From: Lachnospiraceae bacterium | GTDB taxonomy: Bacteria; Bacillota; Clostridia; Lachnospirales; Lachnospiraceae | DNA: 64,000 nt | Assembly: GCA_015057025.1 (NCBI GenBank) | Contig: SVFD01000002.1 | Span: 186,001 to 250,000, forward strand | Reading direction: 5' to 3' | In this document: positions 41,752-44,477 of the stretch, one piece after another | Layout of the letters: every line of letters begins with the position of its first letter | Numbering within the stretch: the stretch's first letter is position 1 | Notes under the pieces: generated by a model | What the model was told of the DNA's origin: nothing | Database searches by the model: none | Seen by the model: the letters and a program-made list of their open reading frames with translations, nothing else | Made by a program: the position numbers and the translations under genes

Positions 41752-41786
41752 ATTAAAAGGAAAGGCATAGAATCATCTATGCCTTT
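41752..41786 (-). terminator. Intrinsic terminator of the Cys/His-rich gene
   Basis: An 11-bp perfect stem AAAGGCATAGA/TCTATGCCTTT (41761-41771 with 41776-41786) with an ATCA loop; on the minus strand it is followed by CCTTTTAATG. Confidence 0.82.
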
Positions 41787-41796
41787 CGGCATTTCC

Positions 41797-42093
41797 TTAG
41801 TTTCTGTCACATCCGCAACCTGAATTTCCACCAAAATTCGGGAAGGGAGTTACTTCCTGACATCCACAATCACTATGTGATACAACGCAATCATTACAGT
41901 TTAAAACAGCCTGATGAACATTATTGCAACCACAATGATTCTCACATTCCGAATGGCAACCACATGATTCATTTACTGTCACATGATTACATCCACATCC
42001 CTGATGATTGTGTTGACTACATCCGCAAGAATTGTGATTATGGTTTGAACCTTTGCAACAGCATAAAAGTAATAAAATCAAAAAACAACTCAT
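41797..42093 (-). CDS. Small Cys/His-rich protein with Cys-Gly-Cys repeats
   Basis: 98 residues from ATG 42093, which lies 7 bases after GGGAG. A short hydrophobic N-terminus (FLILLLLCCC) could be a membrane anchor or lipoprotein-type signal. The rest contains 19 Cys in total and 9 His, with repeated CGC dipeptide-Cys units (SCGC, GCGC, SCGC, HCGC, DCGC, GCGC) and HNH clusters. Proteins of this composition are annotated as chorion-class high-cysteine proteins in Clostridia. Metal binding or disulfide cross-linking (for example in a spore or surface layer) is plausible but unproven. Own terminator; divergent from nothing and likely monocistronic. Confidence 0.72.
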   Translation of the reverse strand: MSCFLILLLLCCCKGSNHNHNSCGCSQHNHQGCGCNHVTVNESCGCHSECENHCGCNNVHQAVLNCNDCVVSHSDCGCQEVTPFPNFGGNSGCGCDRN

Positions 42094-42172
42094 TGTTTTT
42101 CTCCCAAAAATACTTTTATCATATTTTATGCTATACAATATAAAAGGTTACTCACTTCAAAAGAACACTTAT

Positions 42173-43996
42173 TTATGCTTCAAAAATGGTAATACTACGC
42201 TCCTCCACTTCAAAAGTGGATGATTTTTTGGCTTCCGGTATTTCTTTTACCCTTTCACCTGTTGTCATAACAACTTTCCATTTTTGTTCTTTCATTAACT
42301 TAGGTAATGAAAACTGTTTCTTCTCCCAATGCATATTATACGCTACATACCACAGTTTTACACCTTTACCATTTTCATCCGGACAACTGTACATAATTCC
42401 AACATGGTGATTATAATTTTCAAGTTCTGCTTTCCACGCCTGCAGTCCATGATATGACATATCAGGATAACCACAATGATGAATATCCAACATGGTAAAT
42501 TCTTTTTTTACATGTAAAAATGCTGCTGTTTTGCGATAAGCAATCAAATCCTTTGTAAATTCAAGCATTTCCTTGCCGGTTTTAGATAGATTCCAATTCA
42601 GCCAAGAGACTTCATTATCCTGACAATATGGATTGTTATTGCCGTTTTGTGTATTACAAAATTCATCGCCGGCCAATAGCACAGGGGTTCCCTGAGAAAG
42701 CATAACAAGTATTAATGCGTTTCGCATCATCTTTTTTCGTAAGGCCATAACAGCATTTTTGCGACTCTTTCCTTCTACGCCGCAATTCCAGCTATAATTA
42801 TAATCTGCCCCATCATGATTATTTTCACCGTTATCTTCATTATGCTTCTTATCGTAAGATACAAGGTCATTCAATGTAAAACCATAATAGTTAGTGATAA
42901 AATTAACACTGCCTACACGCTCCGGCTTATGTTTGGTAAGAGACAACATTGTAGAAAGCATATCATCATCACCTTTAAGAAATTTACGCATATTATACAT
43001 AAATCCGTCGGAATAAATACACATATTCTTATATGCCGGAATTTCATGAATACCATATATTTCCTGTTCGGGAATATATTGATAAAAAATCTTTGTATTT
43101 GCAAATAAAGGCTCTGTTCCCATAAAAGAAATAGGAACCTTACCTCCTTTTACATGTACACCGTCAATATGATATTCTGTTACCCAATAGCGGATAGAAT
43201 CAAAAATATATCCTTGTTTTACATTATCAGGGAAATAAAATTGCATAATTACTTCAATACCATTTTTATGAAGATGCTTTACCATGTCCTTAAATTCACT
43301 ACCCGCATCTTCACCGTAAGCATAAGATGCCTTCGGTGCAAAATAATAACCTTCTTTATATCCCCAGTAATTAATAGGCATTACAGATTTTTCTTCAAAA
43401 AAAGACATAATGTCTTTCTTTTCTTCTTTTTTGGTTGGATTATATTCTTCAAATTCATAAGCCGGCATCAATTCTATTGCCGTCACTCCTAACGATTTCA
43501 AATACTCCGTTTTGGCTATGATACCCTGATAAGTACCTGCTCCTTTTACCTTTGAAGAAGGATGAATTGTAAATCCACGTACATGTAAACAATAAATCAC
43601 ACTGTCCTCATAAGGAATACACAGCGGTTCATCACCCTCCCAGTTATCATACGGCTTTTCAAAACCGGAACGAAGAATTATTTCTTCCTCTTTGATTCCC
43701 CATTTTTCATTACCAATGATGCGTTTTGCATGAGGATCCACATATTCTTTCTCATCACAATAAAAATTATAATCATAGGCATCAATATCAAGACCTTTTA
43801 CAACCACAGAAGAAATATTACCGATTCTTTTACCGTCCGAAAAGGGAATTCTTGTTTTTTGCCCTGTTTTCTTTTCTATCAGAACAACACCACAGTTACC
43901 TTCTTTATGAAGAACTGCTGCAAACTGAACGCCATCCTTAGTAATTGTTGCGCCCAGAGGATAGGTTGTACCTTTTGTAATGGTTAAATCCGTCAT
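42173..43996 (-). CDS. Glycogen-debranching (GlgX/isoamylase-like) GH13 homologue lacking all catalytic residues
   Basis: 607 residues. Begins with a CBM48-like domain (about 8-90; GATITKDGVQFAAVLH), then a GH13 barrel with strong GlgX hallmarks: SWNCGVEGKSRKNAV, LSQGTPVLLAGDEF, NNNPYCQDNEVSWLNWN, GENNHDG. Yet every catalytic site is changed. Region I DVVYNH reads QFYFPD (Asp to Gln252, His to Asp257). Region II DGFRFD reads DGVHVK (Arg to His281, nucleophile to Lys283). Region III Glu is Gln306. Region IV TAHDG reads TNYYG (His to Tyr370, Asp to Tyr371). So it should not hydrolyse glucan. The frame is uninterrupted, GAGG lies 7 bases before ATG 43996, and it has its own promoter, indicating a maintained protein. 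Confidence 0.87.
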   Translation of the reverse strand: MTDLTITKGTTYPLGATITKDGVQFAAVLHKEGNCGVVLIEKKTGQKTRIPFSDGKRIGNISSVVVKGLDIDAYDYNFYCDEKEYVDPHAKRIIGNEKWGIKEEEIILRSGFEKPYDNWEGDEPLCIPYEDSVIYCLHVRGFTIHPSSKVKGAGTYQGIIAKTEYLKSLGVTAIELMPAYEFEEYNPTKKEEKKDIMSFFEEKSVMPINYWGYKEGYYFAPKASYAYGEDAGSEFKDMVKHLHKNGIEVIMQFYFPDNVKQGYIFDSIRYWVTEYHIDGVHVKGGKVPISFMGTEPLFANTKIFYQYIPEQEIYGIHEIPAYKNMCIYSDGFMYNMRKFLKGDDDMLSTMLSLTKHKPERVGSVNFITNYYGFTLNDLVSYDKKHNEDNGENNHDGADYNYSWNCGVEGKSRKNAVMALRKKMMRNALILVMLSQGTPVLLAGDEFCNTQNGNNNPYCQDNEVSWLNWNLSKTGKEMLEFTKDLIAYRKTAAFLHVKKEFTMLDIHHCGYPDMSYHGLQAWKAELENYNHHVGIMYSCPDENGKGVKLWYVAYNMHWEKKQFSLPKLMKEQKWKVVMTTGERVKEIPEAKKSSTFEVEERSITIFEA

Positions 43997-44029
43997 TCCT
44001 ATACCTCATTTCTTTTCATAAGCCCTTAT

Positions 44030-44058
44030 ATTTTATCACAAAATGCTGTTCTATGCAA
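44030..44058 (-). promoter_or_regulatory. Sigma-A promoter of the debranching-enzyme homologue
   Basis: On the minus strand TTGCAT (44053-44058), a 17-base spacer and TAAAAT (44030-44035), about 35 bases upstream of the start codon. It stands back to back with the plus-strand promoter at 44072-44100. Confidence 0.7.
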
Positions 44059-44071
44059 TTCAGAATATAAC

Positions 44072-44100
44072 TTGCATTTTATGTATTATACTGATAAAAT
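44072..44100 (+). promoter_or_regulatory. Sigma-A promoter of the DUF1292 gene
   Basis: TTGCAT (44072-44077), a 17-base spacer and TAAAAT (44095-44100), identical hexamers and spacing to the divergent minus-strand promoter. Confidence 0.7.
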
Positions 44101-44138
44101 ATACCTATAAATTTTACATCCTGACGGAGGAACAAACT

Positions 44139-44477
44139 ATGGCAGATTTAATAAATAACATTCCTGATGAAGAAGCAGAGGATATTACAGTAGAATTAGA
44201 ACTGGAAGACGGCAAAATTGTTAATTGTGCAATTATCACTATTTTAGAGGTTGACGGCAAGGATTATATTGCTCTTCTTCCTATGGTAGATGAAGATGAC
44301 GAAAACTACGGCGATGTCTGGTTCTATGAGTATGAGGAGGACGACGACGATCCTGATGATGAGCCTCAGTTAAAATATATTGAAGATGATAGTGTGTATG
44401 AAGCTGTGGCTGATGCTTTTGATGAATTTTTAGATAAACAGGAATATGACGAACTGATTCCTGATGATGAAGAATAA
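44139..44477 (+). CDS. DUF1292 family acidic protein
   Basis: 112 residues from ATG 44139, which follows GGAGG by 8 bases; the longer frame at 44043 runs through the promoter. Very acidic, with conserved DUF1292 elements: ITVELELEDGKIVNCAI, VDGKDYIALLP, a stretch of Glu/Asp (EYEEDDDDPDDEP) and EAVADAFDEFLD. The family is widespread in Firmicutes, usually in the yrrK-yrzB area, with no known function. Single gene with its own promoter and terminator. Confidence 0.88.
   Translation: MADLINNIPDEEAEDITVELELEDGKIVNCAIITILEVDGKDYIALLPMVDEDDENYGDVWFYEYEEDDDDPDDEPQLKYIEDDSVYEAVADAFDEFLDKQEYDELIPDDEE

Follow-up and report, generated by a model that had tools for sequence, protein, structure and literature searches.

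A predicted catalytically dead GlgX-type protein and its clade in Lachnospiraceae

The window analyzed here, 64,000 nucleotides of a Lachnospiraceae bacterium (contig SVFD01000002.1, positions 186,001 to 250,000), carries on its minus strand (42173..43996) a 607-amino-acid open reading frame for a GlgX/isoamylase-type protein, P0001. Judged by its sequence, P0001 appears to be a catalytically dead member of the debranching enzymes of family GH13. It does not stand alone: dead GlgX proteins form an old clade with a loop deletion of its own. With middling confidence, we propose that P0001 is a non-catalytic, glucan-binding paralogue of GlgX whose role in glycogen turnover is that of a scaffold or regulator.

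Catalytic site and loop of P0001

Alignment of P0001 to plant ISA1 and E. coli GlgX revealed a replacement at each catalytic position (all codons on the minus strand). The region I Asp is Gln252 (43241..43243; MQFYFPD against D-V-V-F-N-H), the nucleophile is Lys283 (43148..43150; GVHVK against GFRFD), the acid/base is Gln306 (43079..43081; IFYQYI against LIAEAW), and the His/Asp pair of region IV is Tyr370-Tyr371 (42884..42889; TNYYGF against AHDGF). An earlier note, made from the letters alone, had claimed that every GH13 catalytic residue is replaced, and the alignment confirms this; it adds the region II Arg, which is His281 (43154..43156). Between regions I and II, a stub of 11 residues (258–268, 43193..43225) remains of a loop that has 55 in active GlgX, a loss of 44. 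Since the nucleophile, the acid/base, the catalytic residues of regions I and IV and this active-site-adjacent loop are all gone, P0001 should not hydrolyze branch points.

The remainder of the protein is recognizably of the debranching type. Fold matching assigned it the isoamylase fold, with the rice isoamylase ISA2 among the best matches. P0001 shares with GlgX/isoamylase GH13 enzymes (E. coli GlgX, S. venezuelae GlgX, TreX) the fold, the domain order, the non-catalytic motifs and most outer sugar contacts, but it lacks the catalytic set and the 44 loop residues and reaches 318.2 bits against the NCBIfam GlgX model TIGR02100, half of the curated cut-off of 640.9. Pfam returned a partial alpha-amylase match and nothing else; it found no CBM48, yet the N-terminus aligns with the N-terminal part of ISA1. 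The reading frame, strand, length and every residue and motif named in the earlier note are correct in the sequence, including the intact non-catalytic debranching hallmarks such as NNNPYCQDNE. Its description of the protein as full-length holds for the domain order, not for the missing stretch between regions I and II. The AlphaFold model of P0001 had a predicted local distance difference test score (pLDDT) of 67.1, with residues 370–410 and 443–470 below 50; because of these low values no reading of the pocket geometry was attempted.

The dead clade in Lachnospiraceae

The earlier note had put forward conservation across the family as a check. Here, 60 dead-type proteins were aligned with 36 intact family GlgX (among L020–L024, L056–L085 and others). 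The motif AE[AP]W served to separate dead from active rows; the acid/base column is therefore tied to this sorting, whereas loop length and the remaining columns are independent of it. The 60 do not include four dead members that are partial or contain a stop (L109, L122, L123, L124), near-identical refetches, the duplicate L128, the active rows L126 and L127, or the dead-type loci from the class scan described below. The complete four-residue catalytic set occurs in none of the 60 dead rows and in 35 of the 36 active ones. A single dead row has Asp in the nucleophile column, and none has nucleophile and acid/base together. The region I–II loop measures 10–11 residues in 60/60 dead rows and 55 in 36/36 active rows, and is thus a clean marker of the clade, independent of the sorting motif. 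Ten members (L106–L108, L113, L114, L116–L119, L121) form a shorter group of 564–592 amino acids with additional losses between regions II and IV; the stretch measured there is 55 residues long, whereas P0001 has 77 and E. coli GlgX 96.

A quickly built tree of 68 rows, in which several long branches were flagged and ISA2 was not represented, separated all 41 dead rows from the rest by a branch whose Shimodaira–Hasegawa-like approximate likelihood ratio test (SH-aLRT) support was 100. Beyond this branch, GlgX of Lachnospiraceae and of other families of the class were interleaved.

The dead-type protein is carried by Lachnospiraceae and Butyrivibrio records L016–L019 and L025 and by further genomes of the family. 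A profile built from 34 dead proteins (A1) matched 273 of 397 family genomes at E<=1e-130, and 271 of these had a single match; residues were checked in a minority of the 273. Weaker sources, namely 12 genomes matched by P0001 at E<=1e-100 (residues checked in G057, G231 and G317 only) and 14 recognized by the residues of the fetched part (three partial, one with a stop), bring the estimate to 299 of the 397 sampled genomes. A scan of 381 genomes of the class, whose family share was not fully tallied, gave 21 with E<=1e-60. Thirteen were near-full-length matches in a single piece, the window's own genome included, and all lay inside Lachnospiraceae. The eight outside the family were all partial and started at profile position 262–263, five with a second piece before; six of the eight have all four active motifs. 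L155 and L156 miss two motif patterns, but have HDGF and DIVFNH and group with the active rows in the tree. Fixation of the dead paralogue probably dates to the early radiation of the Lachnospiraceae or to an earlier time.

The earlier note had held that intact catalytic residues at this locus in related genomes would count against it. In the 27 loci compared, 26 carry the dead type, a partial test, as the loci were fetched via P0001 matches and are mostly the best-scoring ones; the exception, L023, has an intact GlgX in a different neighborhood. The neighbors recur: a DUF1292 gene was found in 15 of the 27 loci, a UvrD-like gene in 14, a TrpS-like gene in 13, and GltX-like and DUF5662 genes in 12 each. 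The DUF5662-type protein adjoins the dead GlgX gene or lies near it (L019:9992-10636 and 11 others) and is absent from the window. In two genomes the dead gene is found a few kb or less from an intact GlgX gene, two genes away in L104 and one gene away in L105.

In the window itself, the ribosome-binding-like GAGG (44004..44007, minus strand), read directly from the sequence, stands 7 nucleotides 5′ of the ATG. The earlier note had given the gene its own promoter and ribosome site; the latter stands, while the promoter is unsupported, though not excluded, as a consensus scan listed no sigma-70-like site on the minus strand from 43997 to 44230. The scanned region as a whole held 9 such sites, against 12.4 in shuffled sequences. 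Directly 3′ of the P0001 gene lies a small Cys/His-rich reading frame of 113 amino acids with a TTG start (41797-42138, minus strand), without any Pfam match. Both are followed by a terminator-like hairpin of 12 pairs (41760..41787, minus strand).

Glucan contacts, glycogen genes and possible roles

The sugar-contact residues listed for S. venezuelae GlgX in section 11 of PMC9530166 were mapped onto the dead clade, with the printed chain assumed to run three residues ahead of the paper's numbering, an offset that fits the catalytic residues. Trp, Glu, Asn and Tyr at these positions are kept in 59–60 of the 60 dead rows. In P0001 they are Trp211 (43364..43366; 60/60) and the outer-sugar contacts Glu391 (42824..42826; 60/60), Asn455 (60/60) and Tyr457 (59/60), the last two within the Asn455-Pro456-Tyr457 codons (42626..42634), all on the minus strand. 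The −1 pocket, by comparison, is mostly gone. At the Glu391 position, that of Glu463 in E. coli GlgX, active family GlgX has Trp in 31 of 36 rows, whereas Glu is present in E. coli, S. venezuelae and every dead row.

The window's genome is 97.9% complete. GlgA and GlgD, the latter of nucleotidyltransferase fold, score over their cut-offs, and a related gene alongside GlgD is presumably GlgC. There are also two phosphorylases and an intact GlgB of 664 amino acids. Three other intact-looking GH13 proteins score best with models for amylase or maltodextrinase, and two of the three stay below cut-off. The active GlgX paralogue for which the earlier note had suggested a search was not found in this genome; in the congener G120, a score of 623.7 bits, under the curated cut-off, points to an intact GlgX.

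Joint presence was tabulated for the 397 genomes from sets transcribed from printed tables, in which the totals of 273 and 232 agree with the printed tallies. A genome was counted as having active GlgX when its best TIGR02100 match had E <1e-100, above a gap in the scores, which gave 135 genomes; 87 of the 397 pass the curated cut-off, and 30 active proteins were motif-checked as loci. On this basis, 111 genomes have both the dead protein and intact GlgX, 188 the dead protein only, 24 intact GlgX only and 74 neither, a weak association (odds ratio 1.8, p 0.027, Fisher test). For the long branching enzyme resembling P0002, a 774-amino-acid branching homologue in the window, the corresponding counts are 208, 91, 24 and 74 (odds ratio 7.0, Fisher test); neither test was corrected for phylogeny or completeness. 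At least 33 pairs of dead GlgX and long branching enzyme, chosen by eye among the matches listed, share a contig, 24 of them within 65 kb.

We propose that P0001, which keeps the GlgX fold, the aromatic platform, most of the outer contacts to glucan and two long loops that are conserved, would bind branched alpha-glucan without cutting it, the two loops probably forming the glucan-binding face. Such a protein may occupy branch regions, recruit or restrain branching enzyme, or report the glycogen state. It would apparently not depend on an active GlgX partner, since most carriers lack one by score. Comparable non-catalytic roles, namely polymer masking, enzyme recruitment and bringing chains together, have been proposed for isoamylase complexes in section 18 of PMC12510319.

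Several points weigh against a glucan-binding role. The retained residues could be structural, since active GlgX conserves these loops as well (99 columns are identical in both groups); in the dead clade the first strands, together with regions I and IV, are also fairly conserved (1.4–1.7 bits). A further sugar contact of S. venezuelae, Arg212, is conserved in neither dead nor active rows, and the N-terminal CBM48-like domain of P0001 has diverged too far for Pfam to recognize it. The gene sits outside glycogen gene clusters; its frequent neighbors are gltX, uvrD, DUF1292, DUF5662, trpS and the pot operon. The association with GlgB ignores phylogeny and completeness, uses an arbitrary E-value cut and leaves 91 dead-positive genomes without a match. 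Finally, the cytosolic proteome of a Butyrivibrio strain, which may or may not carry a clade member, lists, in the available part of PMC5217386, glycogen phosphorylase, amylase and pullulanase and no GlgX-type protein.

The same neighborhood, recurrent and without glycogen genes, would be expected if the fold had been reused away from glucan, for another ligand or in a role linked to translation or nucleic acids. We regard this as unlikely: the most conserved part of the clade comprises the glucan-contact residues and the GlgX loops, and presence of the protein tracks the branching enzyme.

Somewhat less probable still is that the dead protein functions solely within a heteromer, as the non-catalytic subunit beside an active GlgX. 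Precedent exists in ISA2, a conserved dead isoamylase that forms a complex with ISA1 (PMC12510319, available sections), and the match to rice ISA2, the closely placed gene pairs of L104 and L105 and the 111 genomes with both proteins are all in keeping with it. However, 188 of the 299 carriers lack intact GlgX by score, which makes an obligate partnership of the ISA1/ISA2 type unlikely and leaves it unsupported as a rule; nor was an active GlgX found in the window's genome, although the congener has one by score.

That P0001 has rebuilt its site and remains enzymatically active seems improbable. Replacement residues are indeed conserved within subclades, position 252 being Gln or Glu in 56 of the 60 rows, 281 His in 43 and 370 Tyr or His in 52; moreover, Gln252 is paired with Tyr370 in 29 of 29 rows and Glu252 with His370 in 19 of 27. 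But the nucleophile and acid/base columns vary (mostly N, K, M, L and Y, H, E, D), and the region I–II loop is deleted. The split between 29 Gln–Tyr and 19 Glu–His rows can be explained by a single change on the tree; it therefore gives no independent evidence of coupling and was dropped as a sign of a rebuilt site.

A decaying pseudogene, to which the lost catalytic residues and the few split, partial or stop-bearing members (for example, G327 with one internal TAG) might point, is rejected as highly improbable by the long intact frames, the retention of a single copy in most sampled family genomes with recurrent neighbors, and the selection acting on the gene. The ratio of nonsynonymous to synonymous substitution rates (dN/dS) was 0.050 against L016, 0.061 against L017 and 0.082 for the third pair, all rough values from three close sequences with dS of 1.0–1.7, near saturation. 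Neighboring genes compared with L016 by the same method gave 0.027 (trpS), 0.017 (gltX) and 0.156 (uvrD). Even over the dead catalytic half (residues 245–345), P0001 is 92% identical to L016. The gene is under purifying selection among close relatives. Cyclic di-GMP binding as in Streptomyces GlgX was also considered and rejected, the ExR(X)6R motif being absent: within the first 90 amino acids it occurs in 2/60 dead and 0/36 active rows, and none was seen by eye in P0001.

The branching homologue P0002 (22825-25149, minus strand) is likewise without its catalytic residues. The earlier note had described P0001 as a second dead glycogen enzyme, independent of this one and about 17 kb away; the distance between gene ends is 17.0 kb, and the independence is supported. 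Among the 29 best-scoring P0002 relatives fetched, all seven residues checked are intact in 26; the altered copies are L186, L193 and L195. The two losses therefore differ in age and extent, the branching loss being separate and narrower, and inheritance of the two dead enzymes as a pair was rejected. A broader picture, which we offer as a speculation with modest chances, is that glycogen metabolism of this major gut family is organized by a dedicated protein that binds glucan, lacks catalysis and descends from a debranching enzyme; it would have arisen independently of ISA2 and would operate with the long-form branching enzyme and no active isoamylase. In the window's species, where this long-form branching enzyme is also non-catalytic, the two proteins might then form a glucan-handling module without an enzyme.

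Relation to known proteins and implications

The nearest analogue of P0001 appears to be plant ISA2, likewise a conserved dead isoamylase with its catalytic residues replaced in an isoamylase fold. Unlike P0001, ISA2 has an extra N-terminal beta-sandwich domain, for which P0001 has no room (its residue 5 aligns with residue 144 of rice ISA2). The dead GlgX also differs in that its genomes usually lack an active isoamylase partner by score, and in being bacterial and restricted to one family in the samples searched. The role proposed for P0001 resembles that of GlgD, a regulatory subunit in the same pathway and a paralogue of GlgC (PMC10395257, available text); however, GlgD serves its catalytic paralogue, and such pairing is not the rule for dead GlgX. 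BAM9, a relative of alpha-glucan hydrolases, is described in the accessible part of PMC8774843 as a non-enzymatic regulator of leaf starch breakdown, though it belongs to a different enzyme family and a different organism.

Members of the clade may already have been annotated as enzymes. The glgX2 gene of B. hungatei MB2003 (bhn_I1315, 648 amino acids, GH13 without CBM48) was published as a debranching enzyme (PMC5716241, available portion); by its length and the missing CBM48, as given in that description, it is perhaps a member of the dead clade. The review PMC10395257, in its available text, gives Blautia obeum two glgX homologues. A literature search, with subscription papers largely outside its reach, found no account of the dead GlgX clade as a pseudoenzyme, and the available parts of PMC11046441 and PMC4236520 contain nothing on it. 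What appears to be new is a dead isoamylase in bacteria, a putative variant beside the known dead isoamylase ISA2.

Together, our results indicate that about three quarters of the sampled Lachnospiraceae genomes, by our estimate, carry a GlgX-type gene that is apparently unable to encode a debranching enzyme. Pathway reconstructions that count this gene as GlgX would err, and many such genomes would then be without any GlgX by score. As a bacterial parallel to plant ISA2, the clade makes the purpose of a dead isoamylase testable in fast-growing organisms.
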